This document shows, piece by piece, positions 4,780 through 23,948 of a stretch of 33,622 nucleotides of DNA. The translations under genes were made by a program, and so were the position numbers. Numbering within the stretch: the first letter of the stretch is position 1; every line of letters begins with the position of its first letter. The DNA comes from Eubacteriales bacterium (GTDB taxonomy: Bacteria > Bacillota > Clostridia > Lachnospirales > Lachnospiraceae): the NCBI GenBank assembly GCA_030539395.1, contig JAUNSC010000022.1:1-33622 (forward strand), written 5' to 3'. The notes under the pieces are model-generated. The model searched no databases. It was not told the origin of the DNA and saw only the letters and a program-made list of their open reading frames with translations.

Positions 4780-4938
4780 GTTATTATAAATATAGAAGCA
4801 TTTATTTTTTATGCAAAATAAACCCTTTGGAGAATAAAAGCTTCTGACAGTTTACAGAGAGAAAGTTGCGCAGGCAGCAACGTGCCTGGTGAGAGTAATG
4901 GTAAAATTATTGTAATTACTTTGAAGGGAGGTTGCAAA

Positions 4939-9982: not shown

Positions 9983-10104
9983 ATTTACGAAAATCTTACT
10001 TCTCTTTTACAATATGCTGATGATGGATTTTACTTTCTCCTGATAGGATATCGATACAGAACAGAAATGGTTCTGAAAAATCAAAATATGAGGAGAATAA
10101 TAAA

Positions 10105-10965
10105 ATGAAGAAGATTGCGAGTATGATTTTAGCAGCAAGTGTAGCGGCAAGTCTGGCAGCAGCACCGGTAATGGCAGCCGATCTGGCGGATTCTACAATT
10201 TCTGTAATTTCCCGTGAAGACGGTTCCGGAACAAGAGGAGCATTTATTGAGCTGTTCGGTGTGGAAGAAAAGGATGCAGACGGAAACAAAGTGGATAATA
10301 CCACTATTGATGCAAGTATTACAAATAATACTGCTGTAATGATGTCCACAGTAGCGGGTGATACCTCAGCTATCGGTTATATTTCACTGGGCTCTCTGAA
10401 TGATACGGTAAAAGCGGTAAAAATTGATGGAGCACAGGCAACAGCAGAGAATATCAAAGATGGAACATATAAAGTATCCAGACCTTTTAACATTGCAACA
10501 AAGGGTGATGTCAGCGAAGTAACACAGGATTTTATCAACTATATTTTAAGCCCGGAAGGTCAGGCAGTTGTTGAAGAAAATGGCTACATCGCAATTGATG
10601 TATCAGAAACAGAAAGTACGCAGCCGGAGGGAAAAATTGTAGTTGCAGGTTCATCATCTGTAACACCGGTTATGGAAAAATTGAAAGAAGCTTATGCAGA
10701 AGTTAACCCGAATGCAGAAATAGAGATTCAGCAGAGTGATTCTACAACGGGTATGACATCTGCAATCGATGGTATCTGTGATATCGGTATGGCATCCAGA
10801 GAACTGAAAGATACTGAACTGGAAGCAGGTCTGACACCGACAGTCATTGCATTAGATGGTATTGCAGTCATCGTAAACAATGAGAACCCAATTGAAGAAA
10901 TGACAGCAGATCAGGTAAAGAGCATCTTTACAGGTGAAACTACGGTCTGGGGAGACGTAAAGTAA
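10105..10965 (+). CDS. pstS: Phosphate ABC transporter substrate-binding protein PstS, circularly permuted
   Basis: A 286-residue exported phosphate-binding protein of the Pst importer. A signal peptide covers residues 1-24 (cut at MAA), with no lipobox Cys. The order of its two lobes is reversed. The motif usually mid-protein, SREDGSGTR, comes at 36-44, followed by the normally C-terminal part (IGYISLGSL, RPFNIATK, SPEGQAVVEENGYI). Only after a Ser/Thr/Glu linker comes the normally N-terminal part: KIVVAGSSSVTPVMEKL (177-193), DIGMASREL (226-234), DGIAVIVN, FTGETTVWGDV at the end. Both phosphate-binding loops are present, so it should fold as a permuted protein. GAGGAG precedes the ATG. The stop overlaps pstC by one base. 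Confidence 0.88.
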   Translation: MKKIASMILAASVAASLAAAPVMAADLADSTISVISREDGSGTRGAFIELFGVEEKDADGNKVDNTTIDASITNNTAVMMSTVAGDTSAIGYISLGSLNDTVKAVKIDGAQATAENIKDGTYKVSRPFNIATKGDVSEVTQDFINYILSPEGQAVVEENGYIAIDVSETESTQPEGKIVVAGSSSVTPVMEKLKEAYAEVNPNAEIEIQQSDSTTGMTSAIDGICDIGMASRELKDTELEAGLTPTVIALDGIAVIVNNENPIEEMTADQVKSIFTGETTVWGDVK

Positions 10966-11819
10966 TGCGAAAAGAAAAAATAATGCAGGCGGTATTTCTG
11001 GCAGCCGCCTGCGCTTCTATTCTGGCAGTGGCACTGATCTGCATTTTCCTGTTTGCAAACGGTGTTCCTGCCATTGCAGAAATCGGAGCAGCTGATTTCC
11101 TTCTGGGGAAAACATGGAGACCGGGAAATGATGTTTACGGAATTCTTCCGATGATCATGGGAAGTATTTATGTAACTGCGGGAGCGATTTTGATGGGTGT
11201 GCCCATTGGACTTTTGACGGCTGTTTTTATGGCAGAATATTGTCCGAAAAACATATATAAACCTTTGAAATCTGCAACGGAACTTTTAGCGGGAATTCCT
11301 TCTATTGTTTATGGATTTTTTGGACTGATTGTTCTGATTCCTGCAATTCGAAATATTTTTCCGGGAAAGACAAACGGAGGAAGTATTCTGGTGGCTTCTA
11401 TTTTGCTTGCAATGATGATTCTTCCAACTATAATCGGTGTAACAGAATCGGCAATCCGTACAGTTCCGAGGCACTATTATGAAGGTGCTCTGGCGCTGGG
11501 GGCAACAAAAGAAAGAAGTATCTTTCTGTGCGTGATTCCGGCGGCAAAATCCGGAATTATGGCGGCGGTTGTTCTCGGTGCGGGGCGTGCAATTGGGGAG
11601 ACTATGGCGGTAATGATGGTTGCAGGCAATCAGGCGAGACTCCCGGGCAGTGTCTTTCAGGGTGTCCGTACACTTACCACAAATATTGTATTGGAGATGG
11701 GATATGCAGCAGATCTTCACAGAGAGGCATTAATTGCCACGGCTGTTGCATTGTTTGTATTTATTCTTATCATTAATTTTGCAGTGGCCTGTCTGAACCG
11801 GAGGATTACACATGAGTAA
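10965..11819 (+). CDS. pstC: Phosphate ABC transporter permease PstC
   Basis: A 284-residue membrane subunit with about six membrane segments. Family marks include GNDVYGILPMIMGSIYVT, the SATELLAGIPSIVYGFFGL segment, LGATKERSIFLCVIPAAKSG (the EAA-type loop that contacts PstB) and GAGRAIGETMAVMMVAGN. It forms the channel with PstA. The ATG overlaps the pstS stop by one base (TAATG), and its end overlaps pstA by 8 nt, so all three are translated from one message. Length is as expected for the family. Confidence 0.93.
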   Translation: MRKEKIMQAVFLAAACASILAVALICIFLFANGVPAIAEIGAADFLLGKTWRPGNDVYGILPMIMGSIYVTAGAILMGVPIGLLTAVFMAEYCPKNIYKPLKSATELLAGIPSIVYGFFGLIVLIPAIRNIFPGKTNGGSILVASILLAMMILPTIIGVTESAIRTVPRHYYEGALALGATKERSIFLCVIPAAKSGIMAAVVLGAGRAIGETMAVMMVAGNQARLPGSVFQGVRTLTTNIVLEMGYAADLHREALIATAVALFVFILIINFAVACLNRRITHE

Positions 11820-12654
11820 AAAGTTAAAAGAATATATAAGACATCCTGGCTCACTTTTTATGATGATTCTGGTAATACTGGCGGCGTGTATTACATTTGC
11901 GGTTCTCCTGTTTTTACTGGCATATATATTGGTAAAAGGAATTCCGCAGTTAAAACCGTCTTTGTTTGCACTGGAGTATACAACAGAAAACGTTTCCATG
12001 CTTCCGGCTATTATTAATACACTGTTTATGACACTGATCTCATTGCTGATTGCAGTACCCTTTGGTATTTTTTCGGCTATTTATCTGGTAGAGTATGCAA
12101 AACGGGGAAACAGATTTGTAAACATTATCCGGCTGACAACGGAGACATTGTCCGGAATTCCTTCTATTGTATATGGACTTTTTGGAATGTTATTTTTTGT
12201 GACAGCATTAAAATGGGGTTATTCACTTTTAGCAGGTGCATTTACTCTGGCAATTATGATTTTGCCGTTGATTATGAGGACAACGGAAGAAGCGCTTAAA
12301 GCGGTGCCGGATACTTTTAGAGAAGGAAGTTTTGGACTTGGAGCCGGAAAATTGCGTACAGTTTTTCGTATTGTGCTTCCTGCCGCAGTTCCAGGTATTT
12401 TAGCGGGGATAATCCTTGCAGTCGGAAGAATTGTCGGAGAGACGGCAGCACTGATCTATACTTCAGGAACAGTTGCCCAGATTCCATCCAGTGTTTTCGG
12501 CTCCGGCAGGACCCTTGCGGTACATATGTATAACCTTTCCAGTGAAGGACTCCATATGAACGAATCCTATGCCACTGCTGTAGTTTTGCTGGTTTTAGTG
12601 ACAGGCATTAATGCATTGTCAGGATTTGCAGCAAAGAAACTGTCACAAATTTAG
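11812..12654 (+). CDS. pstA: Phosphate ABC transporter permease PstA
   Basis: A 280-residue partner permease of PstC. It has about six membrane helices, and the family segments LIAVPFGIFSAIYLVEYA, LSGIPSIVYGLFGML and GLGAGKLRTVFRIVLPAAVPG are all clear; the GRIVGETAALIYTSG motif follows. The GGAGG-like site lies inside pstC. The stop codon is directly followed, in frame, by codon 94 of a broken pstB. This may be the deletion end point, so the last few PstA residues (AKKLSQI) may not be the ancestral ones. The protein is otherwise complete. Confidence 0.93.
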   Translation: MSKKLKEYIRHPGSLFMMILVILAACITFAVLLFLLAYILVKGIPQLKPSLFALEYTTENVSMLPAIINTLFMTLISLLIAVPFGIFSAIYLVEYAKRGNRFVNIIRLTTETLSGIPSIVYGLFGMLFFVTALKWGYSLLAGAFTLAIMILPLIMRTTEEALKAVPDTFREGSFGLGAGKLRTVFRIVLPAAVPGILAGIILAVGRIVGETAALIYTSGTVAQIPSSVFGSGRTLAVHMYNLSSEGLHMNESYATAVVLLVLVTGINALSGFAAKKLSQI

Positions 12655-12892
12655 CCAAATCCTTTTCCCATGAGCATTTATGATAACATTGCGTATGGAC
12701 CCAGGACCCACGGTATCCATTCAAAATCTAAACTGGATGATATAGTGGAAAAGTCACTGAGGGATGCGGCTATCTGGGAGGAGACAAAAGACCGTCTGAA
12801 AACAAGTGCCCTTGGCATGTCCGGCGGTCAGCAGCAGAGACTTTGTATTGCCCGTGCTCTGGCTGTGCAGCCTGAGGTACTTTTGATGGATG
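12655..12892 (+). pseudogene. pstB: Resident pstB, middle fragment (codons ~94-172)
   Basis: Starts directly after the pstA stop with [20 protein letters not shown] and carries the signature [15 protein letters not shown], ending at LLMD of Walker B. Compared with the intact copy at 13031, codons 1-93 (including Walker A) are gone. After the shared TGGATG at 12887-12892 the frame continues into unrelated DNA (stop at 12922-12924). The missing C-terminal part sits at 21429-21673. It has no start codon with a ribosome site and cannot make an ATPase. Confidence 0.9.
12887..12892 (+). repeat. Direct repeat TGGATG at left junction of the insertion
   Basis: Last six bases of uninterrupted pstB sequence. 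The same six bases open the C-terminal pstB fragment at 21429-21434, and fusing them restores the codons for LMDEP. This fits a 6-bp target duplication or recombination core. Confidence 0.7.
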
Positions 12893-12916
12893 GAAACTAT
12901 AGAACCCTAAAAGTAT

Positions 12917-12931
12917 GTGCATAGTGTGTAT
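12917..12931. repeat. Terminal inverted-repeat-like motif, left
   Basis: GTGCATAGTGTGTAT, 24 bp inside the left junction. Its inverse with one extra A occurs at 21362-21377 near the right junction. Such inverted arms could be recombinase-binding sites. Confidence 0.45.
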
Positions 12932-12958
12932 CCAGTTGATTTCTGAAAGAAAATAAGT

Positions 12959-12997
12959 ACGGTATACACAGGGCATCAGAAAAAATGTGCATACCGT
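12959..12997. repeat. Imperfect palindrome ahead of the inserted pstB
   Basis: ACGGTATACACA (12959-12970) faces TGTGCATACCGT (12986-12997), 11 of 12 pairs matching and a 15-nt loop. The inner word GTATACACA also occurs at 21360-21368 at the right end. It could be an end-binding site of the element or an operator of pstB. Confidence 0.45.
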
Positions 12998-13030
12998 TGT
13001 ATATAGATTCGACAAAATGAGGAGTAGAAT

Positions 13031-13786
13031 ATGAATGCAATAATAGAGTCCAAAGAACTGAAATTGTGGTATGGTGACTACCAGGTGTTAAAGTCAATTT
13101 CAATGGAGATCCCGGAACATGAGATAACAGCGCTCATAGGGCCATCCGGTTGTGGAAAGTCTACATTCTTAAAGACATTGAATCGCATGAATGATCTTGT
13201 AGAGAATGTACGCATTGCAGGCGAGGTAAATTATAACGGTCATAACATCTATGCCCCGAATGTGGATGTGACTTCACTGCGCAAAGAGATTGGCATGGTA
13301 TTTCAGAAACCGAATCCGTTCCCAATGAGCATCTATGATAATATTGCTTATGGACCCAGGACACACGGTATCCGGTCAAAGGTTAAGCTGGATGAGATTG
13401 TAGAGCAATCACTCCGGTCTGCGGCACTTTGGGATGAAGTAAAAGACCGTTTGAAAAAATCAGCCCTGGGTCTGTCCGGAGGGCAGCAGCAGAGACTGTG
13501 CATTGCGAGGGCAATCAGTGTGCATCCCCGTATTATTTGTATGGATGAGAGTACAGCCTCCCTCGATCCGATCAGCACAAGCAAGATAGAGGATCTGGTT
13601 ACAGAACTTAAATCGCAGTATACGGTCATTATGGTCACTCACAATATGCAGCAGGCTGTTCGTATTTCAGACCGCTGTGCGTTTTTCCTTTTGGGAGAAT
13701 TGGTCGAGTATAGCAGGACGGACGAAATGTTTTCAAGACCGAAGAATAAAAAGACGGAGGATTATATTACAGGTAGATTTGGATAA
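13031..13786 (+). CDS. pstB: Phosphate ABC transporter ATP-binding protein PstB (intact copy within insertion)
   Basis: A 251-residue complete PstB, the ATPase of the phosphate importer. Walker [10 protein letters not shown] (37-45), Q-loop Gln92, signature LSGGQQQR (148-155), Walker B ending MDE (171-173), switch His in VTHNMQQ and the typical end DYITGRFG are present. Ser174 replaces the nearly invariant Pro after the catalytic Glu (DEST for DEPT), an unusual change. GAGGAG lies before the ATG. It is 0.1 kb behind the dead resident fragment and can be transcribed from the pst promoter by readthrough. It is diverged from the resident fragments, so it is not a fresh tandem duplicate. It presumably restores the transporter. 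Confidence 0.92.
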
Positions 13787-13812
13787 AAATGGTATTAAAT
13801 ATATTTATAAAT

Positions 13813-13858
13813 GGCAGATATGGGGTGCTGTTTTGGAAAACCTTATATCTGCCTTTTT
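13813..13858 (+). terminator. Terminator behind the intact pstB
   Basis: GGCAGATAT (13813-13821) is complementary to ATATCTGCC (13845-13853), followed by five T. It would stop pst transcription 27 nt after the intact pstB, leaving phoU, 7.8 kb away, without the pst promoter. Confidence 0.8.
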
Positions 13859-13880
13859 AATATTGAAGAAAATAAGTGAT

Positions 13881-13920
13881 ACTGGCTGGGAGAAAAAGTG
13901 CTCCATATGCCAGTTTTTTT
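13881..13920 (+). terminator. Second terminator behind pstB
   Basis: ACTGGC (13881-13886) pairs with GCCAGT (13909-13914), with an inner GGAG/CTCC pair, and seven T follow. It reinforces the previous terminator. Confidence 0.7.
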
Positions 13921-14020
13921 GTTGGACAGATTGCACGATCATAGCAGAGAAATCTTAGTGGTTTGAGTGAATAGCTATTTTATCAGATGAATCTAGGAGC
14001 AGACACCAACAGAATATAGG

Positions 14021-14176
14021 ATGACCAGTGCAGAGTTTACAGACGAAGAATTAAACATCATTCAGGAACTGTTGAAAAATCATCTGGATGAGGGAATAGA
14101 ACTGGTGGGAACGGCGGATGAGGAAACAGAAATTATACCAGGAACAAAACAAAGGGAAAAAGCATCTTTAAAGTGA
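14021..14176 (+). CDS. Possible small protein, 51 residues
   Basis: An open frame starting ATGACC codes for an acidic peptide beginning MTSAEFTDEELNIIQELL, with a helix-like leucine pattern and a charged tail. No recognised family. The ribosome site is poor (only AGG directly before the ATG), and the reading frame is open for eight codons before the ATG, so it may be the end of a lost larger gene. The remainder of 13787-14228 holds two terminators and nothing else recognisable. Confidence 0.3.
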   Translation: MTSAEFTDEELNIIQELLKNHLDEGIELVGTADEETEIIPGTKQREKASLK

Positions 14177-14181
14177 GAAAT

Positions 14182-14227
14182 GGAAAAGGGGCTGGAATCA
14201 TTTTGTGCGGTTCCAGGCCATTTTTCC
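14182..14227. terminator. Hairpin at the 3' end of the TetR gene
   Basis: GGAAAA and CTGGAA on the left face TTCCAG and TTTTCC on the right, with one bulge and one mismatch between. It ends within 2 nt of the TetR stop codon. The T-tract is weak on the minus strand, so its efficiency is uncertain. Confidence 0.45.
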
Positions 14228-14228
14228 C

Positions 14229-14792
14229 TTATGAGGGCCTTTTCCAAACAGATGGTATCGTATTCTGGATAATATGGGCAATAGTTTCTACACTTTCTGC
14301 ACATCCATGCTCTACCCAGTATTTCAGTATCATGGTAAAGCCTGCCTGAAATCCAACAAAATAAAGCAGCATTTCGTTCTCGGAGCTAATACCTGCCTTT
14401 AGACAGAGAGGTTTAATTACTTGATTCCACAGTGGTTCAAATCCTTGTTTCAACGGAAACTCCCGTCTGGTTTTCAATGCGATCCGGTAAAACTCCTCGT
14501 GTTTCCGAATAAACTCTAAAAATGGAATAAAGGATTCTATGGAAAGCGGGACTACGCTTCCGGGGGTAGGATAGTTATTCATAAGCTCTTTTTGTAGATT
14601 TGCTTCCATTTGCTCAATCATATCGTAAATATCGGTATAATGTGCGTAGAAAGTGGAGCGATTGACCCCAGCATTTTCACATATCAGGCGTACCGTGATT
14701 TTTTCAAATGGTGTCTTGTTCATCAGCTTCAACATGGCCCGTTCCATGCGTGCAGCAGAACTTTGAAATTGTTTGTTGTTTTTCTTATTCAT
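14229..14792 (-). CDS. TetR/AcrR family transcriptional regulator
   Basis: A 187-residue repressor-type protein. The N-terminal DNA-binding helices cover about 12-60, with the recognition part ITVRLICENAGVNRSTFYAH. The C-terminal domain has a core with EFIRKHEEFYRIAL and FVGFQAGFTMILKYWVEHG, the pattern of TetR proteins of the clostridial DhaS-like group. It is read away from the alcohol dehydrogenase, 102 nt apart, across an inverted repeat, so it most likely represses that gene and itself. The inducer is unknown. Confidence 0.88.
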   Translation of the reverse strand: MNKKNNKQFQSSAARMERAMLKLMNKTPFEKITVRLICENAGVNRSTFYAHYTDIYDMIEQMEANLQKELMNNYPTPGSVVPLSIESFIPFLEFIRKHEEFYRIALKTRREFPLKQGFEPLWNQVIKPLCLKAGISSENEMLLYFVGFQAGFTMILKYWVEHGCAESVETIAHIIQNTIPSVWKRPS

Positions 14793-14816
14793 ACGGCCCT
14801 CTAAAGTTCCAACACA

Positions 14817-14862
14817 AATCGGAATATTGATGATTGTAATTCTGATTTTAACCGATTATGAT
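14817..14862 (+). promoter_or_regulatory. Divergent promoter region with candidate TetR operator
   Basis: AATCGGAAT (14817-14825) and ATTCTGATT (14839-14847) form an inverted repeat with one mismatch. The right arm overlaps the -35 box of a promoter facing the dehydrogenase: TTGTAA (14834-14839), 17 bp, TATGAT (14857-14862). That position suits repression. Confidence 0.55.
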
Positions 14863-14894
14863 AAAAGAAGCAAGAATATCAGGAGGTACCGTGC

Positions 14895-15905
14895 ATGAAA
14901 GCAGCGATTTATTTAGGGCAGAGCAACGTAGAAATTCGGGAATTACCTGCTCCTGTCTGTGGCGATAACGATGTCATAATCAAAAATATCTATTCCAGCA
15001 TTTGCGGGACCGACGTGGCAGTTTATACACATGGGCCGAACACCGGGCACAGGGTCACTGTGGGCGGTGAGTTTGGACACGAAACCGTTTCCTGCATCGT
15101 AGAAGTGGGTAAAAATGTAACAGAATTTAAGGTTGGTGAGCGTGTTTATCCCTATCCCCGTTACGCAAAGAACGACACAAGGCGGGCAGGAACCATCGGC
15201 GGCTTTTCGGAATATATCCTTGTGCCGAAGGCAAAGCGCGATCACTCCCTCTATGCTGTCCCGGAGGAAATTTCAGACCGACTGGCCTGTCTGATCGAGC
15301 CGTTTACAGTAGGTTGCCGGGCTGCCCGCCGGGGACAGCCGCAAAAGGGAGAAAGCGCAGTCGTGTTTGGCTGCGGGACGATCGGCCTGGCCGCAGCCGT
15401 TGCCTTGAAATACTTTGGGATGGACAAGGTCATGCTTTGTGACGTATCGGATTTCCGCCTGAGCATTGCGGAGAAGCTCGGCTTTGTTGTCTGCAATACA
15501 GAAAAGGAAAATTTCATTGAAAAAGCCACGGATTACTTTGGAACTGCTCCCTCGCTGACTGGTACGGCACCAGACATAGACTGCTGGATCGACGCTGCCG
15601 GTGCGGAAAGCATTCTGGACACCTTTATGCAGCACGGGAAAATTATCAGCCGTTTTGTGGCGGTGGCTGTGAATAACAAACCGCGTCAGCTTGATCTTCT
15701 GCATATGACTTATGCACAGAAAAGCATCATTGGCTCCGGCGGGTATTTTCCGGAAGATGTGCGGGATGTCATGGCGATCATGGCAAGCGGCAAATGGAGC
15801 CTGGAATCCATCATTACACAGGAATTTCCGTTAGAGCGAATCTCAGAGGCAATCCAGACCGCCGCAAATCCGGATAAGGCTTTTAATGTGACAATTAAGT
15901 TTTAA
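14895..15905 (+). CDS. Zinc-dependent medium-chain alcohol/polyol dehydrogenase
   Basis: A 336-residue cytosolic NAD(P)-dependent oxidoreductase of the medium-chain family. Catalytic zinc residues are visible: Cys37 (SICGTD), His62-Glu63 (GHE) and Glu135 (IEPF). The Rossmann motif GCGTIG is at 159-164, and Asp near 183 after the next strand suggests NAD. The four-Cys structural zinc loop, usual at about 90-110 in this family, is absent; the region reads YPRYAKNDTRRAG. It is therefore on the short side (336). AGGAGG precedes the ATG. A TetR gene diverges from it and a terminator follows, so it is monocistronic. The substrate cannot be told; L-threonine- or sorbitol-like dehydrogenases are the nearest relatives. 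Confidence 0.85.
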   Translation: MKAAIYLGQSNVEIRELPAPVCGDNDVIIKNIYSSICGTDVAVYTHGPNTGHRVTVGGEFGHETVSCIVEVGKNVTEFKVGERVYPYPRYAKNDTRRAGTIGGFSEYILVPKAKRDHSLYAVPEEISDRLACLIEPFTVGCRAARRGQPQKGESAVVFGCGTIGLAAAVALKYFGMDKVMLCDVSDFRLSIAEKLGFVVCNTEKENFIEKATDYFGTAPSLTGTAPDIDCWIDAAGAESILDTFMQHGKIISRFVAVAVNNKPRQLDLLHMTYAQKSIIGSGGYFPEDVRDVMAIMASGKWSLESIITQEFPLERISEAIQTAANPDKAFNVTIKF

Positions 15906-15911
15906 TCGGAG

Positions 15912-15945
15912 GGGATTTCTGTTCGTTGGGGCAGAAATCCCTTTT
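15912..15945 (+). terminator. Terminator of the alcohol dehydrogenase
   Basis: GGGATTTCTG (15912-15921) is perfectly complementary to CAGAAATCCC (15932-15941), followed by four T. Confidence 0.88.
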
Positions 15946-16000
15946 CTCATAAAACAGGAATGTTTCTAAAATATTAAAATTTGCAGCCGCATCAAATATT

Positions 16001-16030
16001 AACAAAACTCAAACAAAACTATGGTAGAAT
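16001..16030 (+). promoter_or_regulatory. Promoter with 11-bp-spaced direct repeats (likely response-regulator site)
   Basis: AACAAAACT occurs twice, at 16001-16009 and 16012-16020, exactly 11 bp apart. Four bases later comes a -10 box TAGAAT (16025-16030). There is no good -35. Repeats in place of a -35, one helical turn apart, are typical of OmpR-type activator sites. The promoter leads into the two-component operon, pointing to autoregulation. Confidence 0.6.
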
Positions 16031-16058
16031 ACAAAAATCAGATATTGGGGGTGATGGT

Positions 16059-16754
16059 TTGCTTCCTAATAAACTGCGCAGTAGCAGCGAAAAAATCAGG
16101 GTGCGTTATGGTTCAGCGGACAGCCGTACCCTGCATATCACAGGAGCTACCGGAGCGTTCAGCATTCTCCTTGGACTGGGGAAAATCGTGTCCGGCATCC
16201 TGGCACTGTCCGTATTTGCCTGTATGAACGGCGGCTATACCCTGGGTATGGCCCTGGCAAGATACTGCGCACTGTACGGCGCGGCAAAGTCAACAGAGCA
16301 AAACGAGCAGTACAAATATTATAGGATTTCCGGCGGTATTATGATCGCTGCCAGCGTTCTCTATGTGTGCTATTCCCTATGGGCGATCTGGCACCCCAAA
16401 ACTGTTTACTATGGGGATATTATCGCAATTACGATTGCGACCATTACTTTTACTGAGATTGGGCTGAATGTGCGGGGCGTCATCAAATACAGAAAAGCAA
16501 AAACGCCTTTGCTCCACGCACTGAAAATCATCAGCCTGGGAACGTCGCTGATTTCACTTGTGTTGACCCAGGCGGCGATTCTGGCCTTTGCGGATGATGT
16601 CCAAAATCCGTCTGTCAATGGTCTGCTTGGAGCGATCACCGGAACTATAGCGGCACTCCTTGGCTGTTATATGCTGTGGCGCATGAAAAAGCTGGAACAA
16701 AAAAGCATAGAAAACGGAGGGAAACAGGATGATACACATACTGGTTGTCGATGA
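16059..16754 (+). CDS. Integral membrane protein ahead of the two-component system
   Basis: A 231-residue protein with about six hydrophobic helices (first around residues 29-52, last around 192-213), short loops and a charged tail (MKKLEQKSIENGGK). I assign no function. The TTG at 16059 is chosen as start because GGGGGTGAT lies 4-12 nt before it and the predicted transcription start is near 16037, after any earlier in-frame codon. The end overlaps the response-regulator gene by 26 nt. Being first in this operon, it may sense or respond to the same envelope signal. Confidence 0.7.
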   Translation: MLPNKLRSSSEKIRVRYGSADSRTLHITGATGAFSILLGLGKIVSGILALSVFACMNGGYTLGMALARYCALYGAAKSTEQNEQYKYYRISGGIMIAASVLYVCYSLWAIWHPKTVYYGDIIAITIATITFTEIGLNVRGVIKYRKAKTPLLHALKIISLGTSLISLVLTQAAILAFADDVQNPSVNGLLGAITGTIAALLGCYMLWRMKKLEQKSIENGGKQDDTHTGCR

Positions 16755-17400
16755 TGATGAAAAATTGACACAGACCATCTGCGCTTATTTAAACAACAGT
16801 GGCTATGAAGCGAAGGGCGTGTTATCTGTTGCCAGCGCCTACGATGAAATGTATAGCAGTTTGTATAATTTGATTATTTCGGATATTATGATGCCCGGAA
16901 CAGACGGTTTTGCATTTGCGGAAACTGTGAGGACACTGAACAACCGTATCCCTATTCTTTTCATAAGCGCACGGGATGATTTGCCAGCGAAACAGAAGGG
17001 CTTTGATCTTGGCATTGATGACTACATGGTAAAACCGCTGGATTTAAGCGAACTTCTCATGCGGGTACGGGCGTTGCTGCGCCGGGCGAATATTGAAGCC
17101 AGTCGAAAGTTAATGGTTGGCGGCCTGGTACTGGATGCGGACGCAATGTCCATCACAGCGGATGGAGAGGATATCCCGGTCACAACACGGGAATTTAACA
17201 TTATGTTTAAGCTGTTATCCTATCCGAATCATACCTTTTCCCGTTCCCAGCTCATGGATGAATTTTGGGGCGTAGAATCCAACACCAGCCTGCGGGCGGT
17301 GGATGTGTATATTACAAAGCTCCGGGACAAGTTTGCCCGCTGCGAGGGCTTCCAGATCAAGACGGTACGGGGCTTGGGCTATAAGGCGGTGCTGTTATGA
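16729..17400 (+). CDS. OmpR/PhoB-family response regulator
   Basis: A 223-residue transcription factor. The receiver domain (1-115) has the acidic pocket DDD (8-10), phospho-acceptor Asp52 in SDIMMPG and Lys in VKPLDLSELL. The winged-helix domain (about 125-220) shows the TREFNIMFKLLSYPN, VDVYITKLRDKF and TVRGLGYKAV motifs. GGAGGG precedes the ATG, and the stop overlaps the kinase start by four bases (ATGA). It is the natural partner of the next gene and probably binds the AACAAAACT repeats ahead of 16059 and 19193. Confidence 0.93.
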   Translation: MIHILVVDDDEKLTQTICAYLNNSGYEAKGVLSVASAYDEMYSSLYNLIISDIMMPGTDGFAFAETVRTLNNRIPILFISARDDLPAKQKGFDLGIDDYMVKPLDLSELLMRVRALLRRANIEASRKLMVGGLVLDADAMSITADGEDIPVTTREFNIMFKLLSYPNHTFSRSQLMDEFWGVESNTSLRAVDVYITKLRDKFARCEGFQIKTVRGLGYKAVLL

Positions 17401-18497
17401 GTTCCAAAGAAACCTACCATGATGAACGAGTAACACGGTCCTATTTTTCCTTTCCGGCATATCTTGCGCTTGCATTTGCTTTGGCGGTCCTGATGGCGCT
17501 TCCCGCCGTATTTTACGGCGGTGTCGATGTCCTGACCGAGGCTCCGCGTTTCCTGAAATGGTATTTTCTCTATTGTCTGATCCTGGCGGCGGTTCTTCTG
17601 GCAATGTTTGCTTTGCAGAAATATCTGCTGCTTGACCGTCCGATTCATAAGCTGAGCCATGCGGCCAGAAAGGTTGCGGAAGGCGACTTCTCAATTTATC
17701 TTCCGATCCGCCATGCTCCGAATGATCTGGATTACATTGATGTTTTATATCAGGATTTCAACACTATGGTAGAAGAACTTGGTTCCATTGAAACACTGAA
17801 AAATGATTTCGCTGCGAATGTATCCCACGAACTGAAGACACCCCTCGCTGCGATCAGCAATCATGCACAGCTTTTAAAAACAACGGAACTGACCGAAAGG
17901 CAGCTGGAATATATAAACGGCATTCTGGAAAGTACGGAGCGGCTTTCTTCCCTGGTCTACAACATTTTGAAGCTAAACAAGCTGGAAAGCCAGAAGATCA
18001 AGGCACAACCGGTTCCCTATAATCTGTGTGGACAGTTGGCGGATTGCGCCATATCCTTTGAAACGGTATGGGAGCAAAAGGGCATTGAATTTGAAGCGGA
18101 TATGGAAGATCAGGCAATGGTGGAAGCCGATGGTGAACTGTTGTCCCTTGTATGGAACAATCTGCTTTCCAACGCGCTGAAATTTACAGACACCGGCGGC
18201 GTGGTGCGTCTGCGGGAGTATTCGGATGAAAAGCAGATCACCGTGGAGGTCTCCGACACAGGCTGCGGAATGCCGCCCCAGGTGATGAAGCATATTTTTG
18301 ACAAGTTCTATCAGGGGGACCCCTCTCATGCGACGCCGGGGAACGGTCTTGGCCTTTCCCTGGCGCTGCGGGTTTTGCAGCTTAGTGATGGAACAATCAC
18401 AGTAAACAGCGCAGAAGGAAAAGGCACTACATTTACCGTTCGGCTTCCGAAAAAACAACTCAAGGAGGAACGATTACGGAATGGCAGAGATCAGTAA
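17397..18497 (+). CDS. Sensor histidine kinase
   Basis: A 366-residue membrane kinase. Two membrane segments (about 17-42 and 53-77) enclose only about ten residues outside, so the signal is probably sensed within the membrane. A HAMP linker follows (80-130), then the H box FAANVSHELKTPLAAI with His144, the N box NNLLSNALKF (254-263), G1 DTGCGMP (287-293) and G2 GNGLGL (315-320). All catalytic parts are there. Very short extracellular loops are typical of intramembrane-sensing kinases answering cell-wall antibiotics in Firmicutes; an antimicrobial role is inference, as no BceAB-type transporter lies next to it. Confidence 0.92.
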   Translation: MSSKETYHDERVTRSYFSFPAYLALAFALAVLMALPAVFYGGVDVLTEAPRFLKWYFLYCLILAAVLLAMFALQKYLLLDRPIHKLSHAARKVAEGDFSIYLPIRHAPNDLDYIDVLYQDFNTMVEELGSIETLKNDFAANVSHELKTPLAAISNHAQLLKTTELTERQLEYINGILESTERLSSLVYNILKLNKLESQKIKAQPVPYNLCGQLADCAISFETVWEQKGIEFEADMEDQAMVEADGELLSLVWNNLLSNALKFTDTGGVVRLREYSDEKQITVEVSDTGCGMPPQVMKHIFDKFYQGDPSHATPGNGLGLSLALRVLQLSDGTITVNSAEGKGTTFTVRLPKKQLKEERLRNGRDQ

Positions 18498-19029
18498 AGG
18501 CGGAACCGACTATATCGGTTATGAATATAAGGAAAAATCTGTTCCTGCACCATTTACCTCTCTTTATCTGGACAGTTATCCCTGCTTTGGGTGGGAGGAG
18601 GACCCCAATGGGATCAACCATATTAAAAACACAAAAAGCACGGGACATATCTCCCTTCGTTTTCGCCGAAACAGGAAAATTTGCAACAAGACGGAGCTGA
18701 CACGTTTGCAGCGCAGTTTTGATGGATGTTTGGCAGAAATTGAAGCGTTGGAACGTTCAAAAACTTCCCTTGCATCTATGTGCGCGCTGATTGTTGGATT
18801 GATAGGGACAGCATTTATGGCAGGGTCCGTATTTGCTGTTACAGCAGAACCGCCTATGTGGATTTTGATGGTTATTCTGGCGGTACCGGGATTCGGCGGA
18901 TGGATCGCGGCATATTTTGTATATCAAATTCTCGTGCGGCGGCGGACGGTAAAAGTAGCTCCGTTGATTGAGCAAAAGTATGATGAACTGTATGAAATCT
19001 GTGAGAAAGGCAATCATCTCTTAATATAA
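18481..19029 (+). CDS. Membrane protein behind the histidine kinase
   Basis: A 182-residue protein of unknown function. The first ~90 residues are soluble (aromatic start YIGYEYKEKSVPAPF, basic patch RFRRNRK near 61-67, coiled helix to about 92). Two membrane segments follow, about 98-120 and 125-150, then an RRR motif and a charged C-terminal helix. AAGGAGG lies 9 nt ahead of the ATG, inside the kinase gene, and overlap with the kinase is 17 nt. It is the last gene of the operon and a terminator follows. Confidence 0.72.
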   Translation: MAEISKGGTDYIGYEYKEKSVPAPFTSLYLDSYPCFGWEEDPNGINHIKNTKSTGHISLRFRRNRKICNKTELTRLQRSFDGCLAEIEALERSKTSLASMCALIVGLIGTAFMAGSVFAVTAEPPMWILMVILAVPGFGGWIAAYFVYQILVRRRTVKVAPLIEQKYDELYEICEKGNHLLI

Positions 19030-19046
19030 TTCCGCCCCTAAATTTG

Positions 19047-19092
19047 AATGGCAGTCGTTTCTTCTGAAAGGAAAAGACGACTGCCATTTTAA
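19047..19092 (+). terminator. Terminator of the two-component operon
   Basis: AATGGCAGTCGT (19047-19058) is fully complementary to ACGACTGCCATT (19077-19088), followed by TT and an AT-rich tract. It separates the operon from the next promoter. Confidence 0.88.
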
Positions 19093-19101
19093 TATTTCTC
19101 A

Positions 19102-19142
19102 AACAGAACTGAAATGTTCGACAAACAAAACTGCTGTAAATT
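19102..19142 (+). promoter_or_regulatory. Promoter with the same repeat motif as the two-component operon
   Basis: AACAGAACT (19102-19110) and AACAAAACT (19124-19132) lie 22 bp apart (twice the 11-bp pitch). Four bases later a -10 box TAAATT (19137-19142) follows. Motif and 4-bp gap match those at 16012-16030, so the response regulator at 16729 likely activates this gene. Confidence 0.6.
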
Positions 19143-19192
19143 ACAGATACTGATTGAGAAGCCAATCACTGAAAACAAAATGGAGGTACATT

Positions 19193-19564
19193 ATGAAAAA
19201 AAGTAATTTTGTAGCATTGATTCTTGGAACCATTGGCATTGTGTTTTTTGCACTGGGTATGTGCATGGCGCTGATCCCGGAATGGGGTATGTTCAACCAG
19301 GGTATCGTCTGCGGCGTAATCGGTTTGGTTGTCCTGCTGGTCACTCTCCTGATCTGGCGCAAGATGGAAGGAAAAGCCCCGGTCAAGATGAGTGCAAAAA
19401 CCATTGGAACAGTTATTGTGGCTGTACTGGGTGCGCTGCTGCTGGGCGTTGGTATGTGCCTGACGATGGTGTTTGACCACTTTGTGTTGGGTATCGTGAT
19501 CGGCATTGTGGGCATCGTTGTCCTGCTGATGCTAATTCCTCTGACCAAGGGCATCCATGATTGA
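19193..19564 (+). CDS. Small polytopic membrane protein, predicted target of the two-component system
   Basis: A 123-residue protein with four evenly spaced hydrophobic helices (about 6-25, 35-54, 69-90, 97-116) connected by short loops; two halves look alike (GTIGIVFFALGMCMAL and GALLLGVGMCLTMVF), which suggests an internal duplication of a two-helix unit. No family recognised. The ATG at 19193 has TGGAGG nearby; an earlier frame start would fall before a ribosome site. It forms a separate unit under a promoter carrying the AACAAAACT repeats. It could be an envelope-stress or immunity protein, by inference. Confidence 0.7.
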   Translation: MKKSNFVALILGTIGIVFFALGMCMALIPEWGMFNQGIVCGVIGLVVLLVTLLIWRKMEGKAPVKMSAKTIGTVIVAVLGALLLGVGMCLTMVFDHFVLGIVIGIVGIVVLLMLIPLTKGIHD

Positions 19565-19990
19565 GCGTGTCAATTAAATCTCACTTAAATTGCAAATAAT
19601 GTTGCTCTGCTGATACAGCCTTTTTTCCGCATGGATCGGATATCCCGGTGGCTTTAAACACAAATTTGTCAGCCTCCACAAGTGGATACTAAGATGCCGG
19701 TCACCGCAATCACTTCGAATGGATTTCAAAAAATTCAAATCGGAGGTAAGAAAGGACTCCGAAAGCAGGGCATCATACCGAAAATTTAAAACAGCCACCA
19801 AAGAATGGAACCTGCAACACATATCTGAAAAATGTGTTTTGGTTCTTTTCCTTTTTAGAAATGGCGGAACAGTTCTTTAAACTATTAGACGTAAAATAGA
19901 CATAAAATGATAGGCAATCGGAGATGATTTGTTCTTCGATTGCTTTGGGGTTCATAGAATTGTATAGTATGAGAATTGGTAGGATGGGTA
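19565..19990. other. Intergenic stretch without recognisable gene
   Basis: Short open frames on both strands have no ribosome site or known motif. The one structured element is the terminator at 19808-19856. A stretch near 19725-19800 could be a decayed coding remnant (lysine- and serine-rich reading), but I cannot name it. Confidence 0.5.
19808..19856 (+). terminator. Terminator upstream of the Abi_2 locus
   Basis: GAACC and AACACAT (19808-19822) pair with ATGTGTT and GGTTC (19832-19845), followed by TTTTCCTTTTT. It may end the transcript of the 123-residue membrane protein about 0.25 kb upstream, or of a lost gene. Confidence 0.65.
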
Positions 19991-20025
19991 CTTGATTTTC
20001 TAAAGATTTGTGTTAAGATTATTAT

Positions 20026-20107
20026 AGACCGTAGGGAGGCATGGGTAATGCCCGAATCCAAATATTCCATTAGCGGGATTAAGAATGGTATATCCATTCT
20101 TTTTTTT
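20026..20107 (+). ncRNA. Putative small RNA upstream of Abi_2, copy 1 (AbiF-RNA-like)
   Basis: A -10 like TATTAT (20020-20025) precedes an approximately 80-nt unit that ends in a clean intrinsic terminator: AGAATGG (20082-20088), loop TATAT, CCATTCT (20094-20100) and eight T. Inside, GGCAT/ATGCC (20038-20042 and 20048-20052) forms a short stem. The first 52 nt recur, 46 of 52 identical, behind the Abi_2 gene. Structured RNAs near Abi_2/AbiF genes have been described, hence the call. Alternative: GGGAGG (20034-20039) and ATG at 20048 would translate a 40-residue peptide starting MPESKYSI. Confidence 0.45.
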
Positions 20108-20127
20108 ACCATGAGAGGGGAGAAGCA

Positions 20128-21079
20128 ATGCCAAACAGGGAAGTTCCAATTAATTTGGAAGAGCAGATAGATGTGATAAAGAAATACGTGGTGTTCCGGC
20201 AAAGAAAGCGGATGAGGGAGTTTCTGCAATATGCGGGTTACTTTAGAGTGAGCAGGTATGGAAAATATTTGCTTTCTTACTCAGGAATCATGGGCAATAA
20301 ACCGAAGCAGGATCTTCTATTTCAATTATATGAGTTTGATGTAAAATTGAGAAATCTCTTGGTTTTATATTGTAATAAAGCAGAGGTGCGGTTTAAGAGT
20401 GCAGTATCAAATGCTGTCTCCATAAAGACACAGGATGCAGTTTTCTATTTGGATCGGCAGTATTACACTCTTTCTAAGAGTGAGAAAGATGCAAAAAAAC
20501 GAAAAAGGAATGAGAAATATTTTCAAAGATTTTTGGATGATATTTTGGAGAAAGAAAATGCATTGAGGAAAGATGTGGTAAAGCATCCTGAACTCAAAGA
20601 ATACCGAAAAGGCGGAAGCAAGCAGAACAGTAGCCTTCCAGTATGGGTGGTCTTTTCATATTTTGAGTTTGGTACAATAACTATGTTGTATTCTTATTTG
20701 CGGGGGGGACTTAAGAAAAGATGTTCTAAATTATGCCTTTTCAAATGGAAAATATAAAAAAGAGGCAACAAAACAGATGGATACCTGGTTGGATGCTATA
20801 AGAAATCTTAGAAATTATTGTGCGCATAATTCGATGGTAAGCGGTATGACATCATCTGTTGTTATCCGGGACTTGAATGATTCGCCTGATGTTTTACCAA
20901 AAGATACGGATTTATTTTCCAGATTATATGCTTTGAAGAAGATTTTACCCAGGAAAGATTCCGAACAAATGAAAAAGGAATTGAAGAAGCTGATTCAGAG
21001 GACAAAGTTTGACATTTATCAGTTAAATATCCTTCCGCAGGGCTGGGAAAATTTAATAGATCAGATTGAAGAATTTTAG
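20128..21079 (+). pseudogene. Abi_2 (AbiD/AbiF-type) abortive-infection protein, frameshifted in a G7 tract
   Basis: Two frames together encode an about 316-residue HEPN-fold Abi_2 protein, a phage-defence RNase-like toxin. The first part starts at 20128 behind AGGGGAG, with VPINLEEQIDVIKK, YAGYFRVSRY and FQLYEFDVKLRNLL, typical of the family. Translation leaves frame after YLRG at seven G (20702-20708) and stops at 20755-20757. Removing one G continues the protein as DLRKDVLNYAFSNGKYKKE and then RNYCAHN, the HEPN R-x4-H active site. As written, the product lacks the nuclease motif. A G-tract frameshift may be phase variation, a fixed mutation or a sequencing error. Confidence 0.8.
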
Positions 21080-21103
21080 AAATAAAGTTACATATGATAA
21101 TAG

Positions 21104-21190
21104 AGACCGTAGGAAGGCGAGGGTAATGCCTGAATCCAAATATTCCATTGGTGGGGGGCGGGTAAGCTAAGCGCTTGCCTGCCTTATTTC
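21104..21190 (+). ncRNA. Putative small RNA behind Abi_2, copy 2
   Basis: Positions 21104-21155 match 20026-20077 at 46 of 52 positions. The short stem keeps pairing through a compatible change (A-T to G-T at its fourth pair). Its 3' end is different: GGCGGGTAAGC (21157-21167) pairs with GCTTGCCTGCC (21173-21183) over 11 pairs with wobbles, then a T-rich tail. A -10 like GATAAT (21096-21101) lies just before. Function unknown; see copy 1. Confidence 0.4.
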
Positions 21191-21242
21191 ATTTAGAAAA
21201 GTTTTACTTGTATTTTACACTTATAGGGTGGAGGATTTTACA

Positions 21243-21311
21243 ATGTCTTTGTTACAATTATGGTGTAACAGAAAAATATTTGGTGAACAGACCTGGAAGG
21301 AAAAAGTATGA
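21243..21311 (+). CDS. Possible 22-residue peptide or gene remnant near the right end of the insertion
   Basis: GGGTGGAGG (21226-21234) stands 8 nt ahead of an ATG that opens a 22-codon frame ([16 protein letters not shown]...). The ribosome site is strong for so short a frame, so it may be the truncated beginning of a larger gene of the element, such as a lost recombinase; nothing identifies it. The rest of 21191-21428 contains the right-end repeats only. Confidence 0.3.
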
Positions 21312-21361
21312 TAGGAATTTACAAATTAATGCCGAACAGTACATTGGAAAAAATGTACAGT

Positions 21362-21377
21362 ATACACACTATTGCAC
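21362..21377. repeat. Terminal inverted-repeat-like motif, right
   Basis: Inverse of the left motif at 12917-12931 with one inserted base. It lies within a larger palindrome: GTACAGT (21355-21361) and ACTGTAC (21378-21384) enclose it. The junction is 51 bp further right. Confidence 0.45.
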
Positions 21378-21428
21378 ACTGTACAAGCCGTGTGTTTTAT
21401 GGGTTTGCGGGCACCCTACTCAAAATCC

Positions 21429-21434
21429 TGGATG
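21429..21434 (+). repeat. Direct repeat TGGATG at right junction
   Basis: Second copy of the 6-bp word at 12887-12892. From here the sequence is uninterrupted pstB again. Confidence 0.7.
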
Positions 21435-21673
21435 AGCCGACTTCAGCTCTGGACCCGATTTCCACGTCAAAAATTGAGGACCTGGCAATGGATTTAAGAG
21501 GACAGTATACAATTGTAATTGTAACCCATAATATGCAGCAGGCGGTAAGAATTTCAGATAATACGGCGTTTTTTCTGCTGGGTGAAATGGTAGAGTTCGG
21601 GGATACAAAAAAGTTGTTTTCAAAACCTGCGGATAAAAGAACGGAAGATTATATTACGGGGAGGTTTGGCTGA
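21429..21673 (+). pseudogene. pstB: Resident pstB, C-terminal fragment
   Basis: Begins at the Walker B aspartate ([14 protein letters not shown]) and runs to the normal PstB end EDYITGRFG, with [13 protein letters not shown] in between. An in-frame leader from the insertion lies before it, but it lacks Walker A, the Q-loop and signature. It keeps the canonical DEPT that the intact copy has changed to DEST. phoU begins one base after its stop, the native operon junction, so this is the true 3' end of the resident gene. Confidence 0.9.
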
Positions 21674-21674
21674 T

Positions 21675-22328
21675 ATGAGAGATTATTATGATAAACAGCT
21701 GGAAAAACTTAACGGATATGTGACGGATATGGGACAGCTGATTGAAAATGCCATACAAAACGCCATAACGGCACTTCTTGCCCATGATAAGGAGGGCGCT
21801 GAAAATACGATCCACTTTGATGATGAAATTGATCGCATGGAAAGAGATACAGAGAATCTGTGTCTGAATCTTCTTTTATCGCAGCAGCCGGTTGCCACAG
21901 ATCTTCGTCTGGTATCAGCAGCGCTGAAAATGGTAACAGATATGGAGCGGATAGGAGATCATGCGGCGGATATATCTGAAATAACTTTAATTTTGGCCGG
22001 AAGCGGTTTTCCGGAAAGCTTAAACAGCATTGAGAAAATGGCAGAAGAAACTATCTTTATGGTAAAAGAAAGTGTGGACGCATACGTGCAGCGCAGTGTA
22101 CAAAAAGCAATTGAAGTAATCCATCATGATGATGTGGTGGACAATTATTTTGTTGATATAAAGAAACTCATCATATGGCAGATTAATGAAAATATTCAGA
22201 ACGGGGAGCAGGCAGCAGATATTTTGATGATTGCAAAATATTTGGAACGGATTGCAGATCATGCGGTCAACATTGCTGAGTGGGTATTATTCTATATCAC
22301 AGGGGAGCACCCGGAGGTACCGGTATGA
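21675..22328 (+). CDS. phoU: Phosphate transport regulator PhoU
   Basis: A 217-residue all-helical protein that links Pst activity to phosphate control. It has two three-helix repeats, each with the metal-binding motif: ERIGDHAADI (about residues 92-101) and ERIADHAVNI (about 194-203). The ATG at 21675 (GGGGAGG about 10 nt before) is preferred over a TTG 9 nt earlier. It lies one base behind the pstB fragment. Because two terminators follow the intact pstB and 7.8 kb intervene, phoU has probably lost its pst promoter and depends on transcription from the insertion. It overlaps the next gene by four bases. Confidence 0.92.
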   Translation: MRDYYDKQLEKLNGYVTDMGQLIENAIQNAITALLAHDKEGAENTIHFDDEIDRMERDTENLCLNLLLSQQPVATDLRLVSAALKMVTDMERIGDHAADISEITLILAGSGFPESLNSIEKMAEETIFMVKESVDAYVQRSVQKAIEVIHHDDVVDNYFVDIKKLIIWQINENIQNGEQAADILMIAKYLERIADHAVNIAEWVLFYITGEHPEVPV

Positions 22329-22534
22329 AAAAATACATGTATGATATGTTTAGAAAGAGATTAAATATTTCGCCACAGTCGGCTATGCTTTCGTTTATTT
22401 TGGCCGGAACAGTTGCGGGATGTCTGGCAGGAGCTGCCGCAGCACGGATAACGGGACTGTCTTTGGGAACGCTGGCAGGAGCAGGAATAATTGCAGGATT
22501 TGTATTCACATGTATTAAGCTTCTGAATTTATAA
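22325..22534 (+). CDS. Small membrane protein coupled to phoU
   Basis: A 69-residue protein: basic N-terminus (MKKYMYDMFRKRLNISPQSA), then two hydrophobic helices (about 21-42 and 45-66) rich in Ala and Gly, and no further domain. Its ATG overlaps the phoU stop (ATGA), so it is co-translated with phoU. No known family; a link to PhoU or the Pst permeases is plausible from position alone. A terminator follows, ending the pst region. Confidence 0.65.
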   Translation: MKKYMYDMFRKRLNISPQSAMLSFILAGTVAGCLAGAAAARITGLSLGTLAGAGIIAGFVFTCIKLLNL

Positions 22535-22562
22535 AAGGTGTAAAAACAGGCCTTTTTAGATG

Positions 22563-22588
22563 AGGATCCCAAAAATGAGATCCTTTTT
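22563..22588 (+). terminator. Terminator of phoU operon
   Basis: AGGATC (22563-22568) pairs with GATCCT (22579-22584), followed by TTTT. It touches the 3' end of the converging MATE gene. Confidence 0.7.
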
Positions 22589-23948
22589 ATTCGTATTCTT
22601 TTGTAATGTTATTCAGCCATTTATAACTCCGGAAATGTTTGATTACCCAGGGCCATTTTACAAATTCATCTGTACAAAGCAGGAAGTAGACCCAAAGAGG
22701 CGGAAGCTTTAAAACAAAGGCAGAAAAGAACCCCAGGGGAACGGCATAACACCACATATCGATGGTATCGCAGATAAAACCGAAACGGCTGTCGCCTCCG
22801 GCCCGGAATACACCGGAGATTAAAAGGGAGTTAACAGAAATTCCCATAATATAATAGCTGTTCATAAGCAGCATATATTTCAGATAATGCATTGCCTGAC
22901 TGGTCAGGGATGCATTTTTTAATACAAAAGGCGAGATGGAAAGAACGATAACACCGCCGACAGCACCGGCTATTAAGGTAAGTACCATAAGCCGTTTGGA
23001 ATCACGTCTTGCTCCCTCCATATCATTTTGACCGATCTGTTTACCAAGCCAGATTGTAGATGCACCGGCAAAACCATAACAGAAGACAGTGGCAAAATTG
23101 CGCACCACTACAACAATGGAATTGGCAGCCACGATGTCTGTTCCCATATGACCGAGAATGACAGAATACATGGAAAAAGCAGTACTCCATACAAGATCAT
23201 TTGCAACTGCCGGTATGGAAAGTTTCAGGAAATCCTGGAACAGAACTTTGTTACGGACAAATATGTATGAGAACCTCAGCTTCACATTCTTTGAAAAGTG
23301 GGAGACAGCTATACAGCAGATCAGCTGTATTCCACGGGAAATACTGGTGGCAAGAGCTACACCGGTAACACCGAGTTTTGGTGCGCCCAAAAGCCCAAAG
23401 ATAAACACCGCATTTAAAATGACGTTCAATACCAGTGCCAGCGCATTAAGAGCAGTGCTGATGCTCACGCGTTCCACACTTCGAAGGGAAGCAAGATAGA
23501 TTTCTGAAATACTCCAGAATATATAACTGAAACAGACAACTCTCAGATAAGGTACACCAAGAGAAATTAATTCTGTATCATTTGTGAAAAGACGCATCAT
23601 CAATTCCGGAATTGTAAGAGCGCACAGGGCAAACAATGTTGAAACAATGATAGAAAAGCGCAGTGCGATTCCTTCTACCAGTTCAATGGCGTGTACATCT
23701 TTTTTACCCCAGTATTGGGCACTCAGCATGGTGGCTCCGGTTCCCAGTCCAAAGAAGAACATAAACAAAACAGAAGAGTACTGGGATGCGAGAGAGACGG
23801 CGGAAATAGCTGATTGCCCAACGCTGTTCAGCATGATAACATCAGCAGAGCTTACAGCAGCGCTCAGCAGATTCTGGATTACAATAGGCATGGTCAGGCT
23901 GAAAATCTGACGGTAAAAAAGAGGATGTTTATTTACATTAGCATTCAT
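22587..23948 (-). CDS. MATE family efflux transporter
   Basis: A 453-residue cation-coupled exporter with about twelve membrane helices arranged as two related halves. The first half starts FSLTMPIVIQNLLSAAVSSA and includes GLGTGATMLSAQYWGKKD (about 67-84); the second half includes SIPAVANDLVWSTAF and the related GFAGASTIWLGKQIGQND (about 295-312), the mirrored MATE motif. The length is normal. Its ATG follows GAAAGGAAA on the minus strand, 14 nt behind the histidine phosphatase gene, so the two form an operon. Substrate (drug, dye or metabolite) cannot be told from sequence. Confidence 0.92.
   Translation of the reverse strand: MNANVNKHPLFYRQIFSLTMPIVIQNLLSAAVSSADVIMLNSVGQSAISAVSLASQYSSVLFMFFFGLGTGATMLSAQYWGKKDVHAIELVEGIALRFSIIVSTLFALCALTIPELMMRLFTNDTELISLGVPYLRVVCFSYIFWSISEIYLASLRSVERVSISTALNALALVLNVILNAVFIFGLLGAPKLGVTGVALATSISRGIQLICCIAVSHFSKNVKLRFSYIFVRNKVLFQDFLKLSIPAVANDLVWSTAFSMYSVILGHMGTDIVAANSIVVVVRNFATVFCYGFAGASTIWLGKQIGQNDMEGARRDSKRLMVLTLIAGAVGGVIVLSISPFVLKNASLTSQAMHYLKYMLLMNSYYIMGISVNSLLISGVFRAGGDSRFGFICDTIDMWCYAVPLGFFSAFVLKLPPLWVYFLLCTDEFVKWPWVIKHFRSYKWLNNITKEYE

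Follow-up and report, generated by a model that had tools for sequence, protein, structure and literature searches.

An 8.5-kb segment carrying a diverged pstB divides the resident pstB of a Lachnospiraceae pst operon

A resident pstB in two pieces

The DNA analysed here, referred to as the window, is a stretch of 33,622 nucleotides from a Eubacteriales bacterium of the family Lachnospiraceae (GCA_030539395.1, contig JAUNSC010000022.1), in which a pst operon leads into a resident pstB gene, encoding the ATPase, that is present as two complementary pieces (12655-12892 and 21429-21673) meeting at a single TGGATG. Between the pieces lie 8,536 bp (12893-21428) that contain a complete pstB of another type, and phoU follows the second piece (Table 1). 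The initial annotation, made from the sequence alone, had described a resident gene divided without gap over TGGATG, the loss of its codons 1-93, and about 8.5 kb of intervening DNA with a complete, diverged pstB at 13031-13786, and all of this was borne out. Joined over one TGGATG, the pieces form an in-frame sequence of 158 codons with 0 stops, the 5' piece encoding PNPFPMS...VLLMD and the 3' piece carrying on with DEPTSALDP...TGRFG; at the 5' end about 93 codons are gone, the remnant beginning immediately after the pstA stop at 12654. Against the TIGR00972 cut-off of 343.2 bits, the 5' piece scores 134.6 and the open reading frame (ORF) with the 3' piece 126.1, both below it, while the inserted gene encodes 251 amino acids and reaches 407.8 bits, which identifies it as a PstB. 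The TGGATG direct repeat is exact and exactly 6 bp long, the adjoining bases differing on each side; the chance of a junction overlap of this length was estimated, without simulation, at about 0.2%, and as a putative att direct repeat the flanking hexamer is exact but short.

Table 1. Features of the pst locus and of the segment within it
Feature	Position	Strand	Basis
Pho-box promoter of the pst operon, upstream of pstS	9994..10052	+	TTAC-type direct repeats 11 bp apart; same layout before pstS in G002, G005 and G006
pstS, pstC, pstA, frames unbroken	10105..12654	+	ORFs; about 74-83% identical to G002/G005/G006 orthologues, depending on gene and aligned length
Resident pstB 5' remnant, codons about 94-172	12655..12892	+	95% amino acid identity to G005 PstB
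TGGATG, left copy of the junction repeat	12887..12892	+	Sequence; one copy at the G005 site
Left insert end	12893..13030	+	Inverted and direct repeats in common with the right end; end motif 12916-12930
Complete xenologous pstB (type N)	13031..13786	+	TIGR00972 above cut-off; clade with G002 and G006 PstB, support 100/100
Terminator-like hairpin after the new pstB	13813..13853	+	Fold z -4.3; inverted repeat
Cargo: TetR (-), zinc-dependent dehydrogenase, membrane protein, response regulator, histidine kinase, two more ORFs	14229..19564		Pfam; same order in G077
Abi_2/AbiD module: 58-bp repeat and terminator, frame-broken Abi gene, second repeat and terminator	20020..21185	+	Pfam, PADLOC AbiD, repeats, hairpins
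Pho-box promoter, phoU type	21202..21260	+	TTTTAC repeats and -10; same-layout box about 100 bp before stand-alone phoU in G002 and G006
Right insert end	21261..21428	+	Partner end motif 21363-21378; repeats in common with the left end
ORF of 121 amino acids: 40 insert codons and junction codon fused in frame to PstB, Walker B to end	21308..21673	+	TIGR00972 model positions 167-248
Resident pstB 3' remnant, opening with right TGGATG (21429-21434)	21429..21673	+	87% amino acid identity to G005
phoU, ATG directly after the pstB stop	21675..22328	+	TIGR02135 205.6 bits against cut-off 130.25; 72% identical to G005

The genus sample comprised eight genomes including the source genome, with one genome per species. 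In one of the other species, G005, pstS-pstC-pstA-pstB-phoU is unbroken and the same site is whole (CTTTTGATGGATGAGCCGAC), so that the boundaries of the insert are set to the base and an empty site is present in a relative. The initial annotation had proposed looking for exactly this arrangement and had taken a shared order among relatives, with no uninterrupted gene in any of them, as what would speak against an insertion; the uninterrupted pstA-pstB-phoU was found, in a different species rather than in another strain. Counterparts of a small ORF and of two further genes of the window lie 3' of phoU in G005, with other genes interspersed; two of these three we take to be phosphatase-like and decarboxylase-like.

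The remaining members of the genus differ in arrangement. G007 has the ordinary pstA-pstB-phoU order, its PstA being only about 45% identical, and no match of PstB strength was obtained in G001, G003 and G004 (the best E values, 1e-33 to 1e-42, lying where other ABC ATPases fall). G002 and G006 carry a pstB of the inserted type directly behind pstA, and their phoU stands alone elsewhere. Among 66 PstB loci (up to L099, picked by likeness to the new PstB), phoU lies downstream at 61, no more than about 230 bp away at 60 of these; the five exceptions are G002, G006 and L088 together with L033 and L099, whose contigs end 338 and 824 bp further on. The same sugar-ABC operon (97-99% identical) stands before pstS in G002 (locus L039) and, with one gene between, before phoU in G006 (locus L188), hinting that pst and phoU may once have been neighbours in the ancestor of these two species. 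The last 20 nucleotides before phoU match the pstB end of G005 at 14/20 positions in G002 and at 12/20 in G006, and the window, compared ungapped, at only 10/20 and 7/20; the 14/20 match suggests that the resident pstB may once have stood before phoU in G002 too. Both species look like the finished product of a pstB swap.

Regarding the age of the break, the 5' piece differs from G005 by 33 synonymous and 4 nonsynonymous codons among 79, and the 3' piece by 34 synonymous and 10 nonsynonymous codons among 78. The joined remnant shows 14 amino acid differences from G005 over 158 residues, which, polarised with five outgroups, fall 6 on the remnant side and 5 on the G005 side, with 3 unclear. Since the remnant has 6 derived amino acid changes against 5 in the intact gene of G005, and its codon changes are mostly synonymous, the break looks recent on sequence grounds. 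Three core proteins are 82.5% identical to those of G002, the species differing at 17-18% of residues, and in a gene broken since the divergence from G002 more decay would be expected.

The inserted pstB, the phoU promoter and the cargo

According to the PstB tree (69 rows, one pair of which is the same G028 gene), the inserted PstB groups with those of G002 and G006 (support 100/100) within a clade of 16 rows (98/91). The resident type pairs with G005 (100/85) elsewhere in the tree, in a wider group whose fork is supported at only 81/85. In the PstA tree (14 rows, from which G006 dropped out), the window, G002 and G005 cluster with L015, L020, L024, L067 and L083, all with a resident-side PstB, while the PstB of the other group (L012, L013, L058, L069 and L074) belongs to the clade of the new gene; L019 fits neither grouping. 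Displaced and displacing PstB thus lie in separate clades with PstA among resident-type systems, as in xenologous displacement, and only pstB was exchanged, as far as tested. Two other derivations of the locus were rejected: a tandem-paralogue model, in which both genes stood side by side in an ancestor and were differentially lost, faces a new gene sitting between exactly complementary resident pieces, and a recombination hybrid from a single crossover at pstB faces two genes of which neither is hybrid, the resident pieces siding with G005 and the new gene with G002 and G006.

The source of the new gene was sought among plasmids and phages, where 138 plasmid and 26 phage records match and none reaches at least 80% identity, the best of the matches listed standing at 71.5% and 74.9%. 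A scan of named genomes gave 73% as the best among the matches listed, a scan that may leave out very near genomes. At the insertion site, the Walker B/D-loop reads DESTASLDP in the new PstB and DEPTSALDP in the resident one; among 119 PstB rows, of which the pattern scored 5 improperly, DESTASLDP occurs in 2 (G002 and G006) and DEPTSALDP in 74. As a matter of speculation, this change may shield the new gene from re-insertion, and yet the TGGATG hexamer is still present in the new pstB with its six bases unaltered.

The initial annotation had considered phoU uncoupled from pst by two terminators. Such terminators do separate them, at 13813-13853 behind the new pstB and at 21155-21185 (z -3.3), each hairpin folding better than 200/200 shuffles; the uncoupling is qualified by the Pho-box promoter and in-frame start, both within the insert, that lead into phoU. 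This box, absent from the initial annotation and situated between the second terminator and phoU, has TTTTAC repeats 11 bp apart, a third repeat and a -10, and was initially hinted at by a weak match (E 0.016); it agrees with the phoU boxes of G002 and G006 (46/76 and 44/76 positions) a little more closely than with four pstS boxes (37-40/76). An ATG at 21308 opens a frame that enters the 3' pstB remnant in frame and ends at the phoU start, an entry that has a one-in-three chance and alone proves little. The box may accordingly be a candidate driver of phoU, and the altered phosphate control that had been envisaged appears less probable than its retention: box and in-frame start make it more likely that control was kept rather than lost. 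A simple terminator scan of 12600-22700 returned 10 sites against 9.0 expected, omitting the hairpin at 13813-13853, whose loop is too long for it, and found no plus-strand terminator-like site between pstA and the new pstB; a general sigma-70 scan gave no excess (23 sites against 22.2 expected).

Behind the new pstB, the insert carries a cargo cluster whose order is repeated in G077 and, without a dehydrogenase match, in G405, and is partially present in other genomes of the family; no pstB lies within the G077 and G405 stretches compared. Within the genus, G002 and G006 show partial matches of 64-71%, with one 83-bp piece at 81%. The source genome has a second copy of the zinc dehydrogenase (contig C64, 224559-225609) with 82% DNA identity to that of the insert. 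The GC content of the cluster is 0.47-0.50 against about 0.40-0.44 adjoining, which is weak evidence because the window at 28.5-31 kb is likewise at 0.46-0.48.

The Abi_2/AbiD module follows the cargo cluster. Its 58-bp repeats also flank an Abi_2/AbiD gene in G073, G330 and G271 (L194, L195 and L196), in each case as a single long ORF and with downstream hairpins of a different sequence. No match of the repeats to the abiF RNA (RF03085) was found at E up to 1 in 19560-21700. The module is possibly an Abi system with two small RNAs, for which AbiF/RCd22 of C. difficile, as presented in PMC12373285, is comparable to the Abi gene with its flanking repeats.

Two other regions of the window stand apart from the pst locus. 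The AT-rich stretch 31464-33622 (GC 0.31-0.34) has a gene that is weakly tyrosine-recombinase-like (SAM-like N terminus, below cut-off), followed by a protein with Schlafen/AlbA_2 and RecG-like C-terminal parts, and looks like another small insertion. At 4882-7800, a protein of 972 amino acids fuses a protein kinase domain to a long run of DUF285/leucine-rich repeats.

Origin of the segment

The arrangement is best read as a foreign segment, 12893-21428, that was put recently into an intact resident pstB and that would represent a decayed or non-autonomous mobile island, similar to a cis-mobilizable element (CIME), whose cargo replaces the broken ATPase gene; we put the probability of this reading at roughly 0.6. 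The segment would have entered at TGGATG in the Walker B codons. Its left end would place a complete foreign pstB behind pstA, readable through from the pst promoter, and its right end a Pho-box promoter followed by a start codon in frame with the 3' remnant leading into phoU, while the loss of about 93 resident codons would have brought pstA nearer to the new pstB, so that the cargo could keep the pst system working. Four things are presupposed here: former mobility of the segment, a new PstB able to work with the resident PstSCA, transcription of phoU from the box, and a particular order of the two losses. An island is proposed because both ends share repeats, though no recombinase gene was found inside, and a decayed or trans-mobilised island is the best fit for the insert, if an unproven one.

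Some observations favour this interpretation with reservations, and others weigh against it. A 22-bp direct and a 28-bp inverted similarity link the left segment (12893-13030) to the right one (21156-21428), each score being reached by 1/1000 shuffles, and yet the segments for shuffling were chosen once the repeats were known, and these repeats are not the strongest in the repeat list. The end motif, TACACACTAT-N0/1-GCACA, derived from both ends, occurs in 1/294 genomes, namely the source, twice, at the insert ends in opposite orientation, and has no second copy in the other 293. The outer termini, GAAACTATAG... and GGATTTTGAG..., are by eye not inverted repeats, the shared repeats being subterminal, which is not the arrangement of a DDE transposon. 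No recombinase or transposase was recognised by Pfam in 27 of the 28 insert-overlapping ORFs of at least 80 amino acids, the 28th being the resident 5' remnant. The Pho-box pattern, which finds two boxes in the window (before pstS and at 21202-21260) whereas 60 simulated windows average 0.033 and never exceed 1, was chosen after the sequences had been seen. Furthermore, the new PstB type and the phoU box are common to G002 and G006, possibly from an older shared event, and the comparison is one between species, with a single genome for each.

Among viral contigs, 52 stretches have one exact end-motif match each, with no pair, and the left end alone has no other match in 97 genomes. In G006, a gene for an XerA/XerD-like tyrosine recombinase (L188, 9101-9940), below curated cut-offs, lies shortly after the stand-alone phoU. 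Its relatives are present in 8/8 genomes of the genus, the nearest in the source genome being on contig C70 (65%), and when five short motifs were tested around it, TGGATG, itself common, was the only one present; this integrase is unlikely to be the missing recombinase of the insert.

The shared features of G002 and G006 can also be accommodated without a mobile element, if a piece of a donor chromosome, from the pstA tail through pstB to the phoU promoter, was joined into the resident pstB by illegitimate recombination. The absence of a recombinase among the ORFs searched suits such an event, and in G002 and G006 the new-type pstB directly after pstA and the phoU box of this type mean that the outer parts of the insert could adjoin in a donor, a former linkage at which the sugar-ABC operon before pst in one species and near phoU in the other also hints. 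Yet about 120 bp of the left end and 165 bp of the right end are unmatched in the pst and phoU regions of G002, G005, G006 and G007, both ends share repeats with each other, and the exact 6-bp repeat with its lossless junction fits a recombinase or transposase better, which leaves the donor piece an unlikely origin, if the least unlikely of the alternatives. Doubtful, too, is an extension of the island interpretation to a family of pstB-specialised mobile elements that would integrate at Walker B, bring their own complete pstB with a rewritten, possibly re-insertion-resistant D-loop and a Pho box for phoU, and have struck at least twice in the genus, recently in the source genome and before that in the G002/G006 ancestor, with later deletion of the remnants and a drifting apart of pst and phoU.

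A single insertion in a common ancestor of the source genome, G002 and G006, inherited since, would explain why a PstB of the new clade and a phoU preceded by a Pho box occur in all three; it is improbable, as the remnants are too intact, with 6 amino acid changes on their side in 158 codons and mostly synonymous codon differences, against a core-protein difference of 17-18%, and the core tree does not join the source genome with G002 and G006 (support only 67-70). An assembly chimera is conceivable in a draft of 77 contigs and would nonetheless require two joins to break one gene at the identical base; G005 has counterparts of the genes of both flanks around an intact pstB, and a 6-bp overlap is shorter than the overlaps usually used by assemblers, which makes this explanation very improbable indeed.

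Comparison with known systems

No published description of such a pstB insertion was found among the papers listed, as judged by titles and the starts of abstracts, with most subscription journals outside the coverage. The locus is known in kind, islands in genes and gene displacement in operons being familiar; the locus is unusual in that the insert brings along an entire target gene together with a promoter for the gene downstream, and in that the intermediate can still be seen. Xenologous gene displacement in situ gives mosaic operons, and swaps of single operon genes for distant homologues are usually inferred from trees. The present case resembles them in that one operon gene is swapped for a distant homologue with its neighbours unchanged, and differs in that both remnants of the displaced pstB persist. 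The intermediate of a swap is therefore readable here, with the old gene in two, the new gene in place, a candidate takeover promoter, and part of the old gene lost.

Among integrative elements, a CIME is one that has lost its integration and transfer genes and kept attL and attR, according to PMC5704250. The insert is similar as an island with a short flanking direct repeat, repeats near its ends and no recombinase found, and dissimilar as it sits inside a conserved gene and brings a whole replacement gene as well as a promoter for the downstream gene; an origin from an integrative and conjugative element (ICE) or an integrative and mobilizable element (IME) would be hypothetical. Serine-integrase elements insert inside genes such as rumA, their targets being described as dispensable and disrupted in PMC5704250 and PMC4701971; insertion interior to a conserved gene is common to both, unlike the integrase, which was not found here among the ORFs searched.

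The initial annotation had likened the insert to elements that restore the gene they enter. The insertion into an intact pstB, the diverged replacement behind pstA and the likeness itself stand, whereas mobility gains no support from the insert-overlapping ORFs searched, which yielded no recombinase. Some integrative elements spare their target through a flanking repeat that includes one gene end, as PMC5704250 describes, and here, too, the target apparently still functions once integration has taken place. If mobile, the segment would be an element that compensates for a broken nutrient-sensing gene by a whole new copy; unlike the target-sparing elements, it supplies a complete xenologue and leaves the original gene in pieces.

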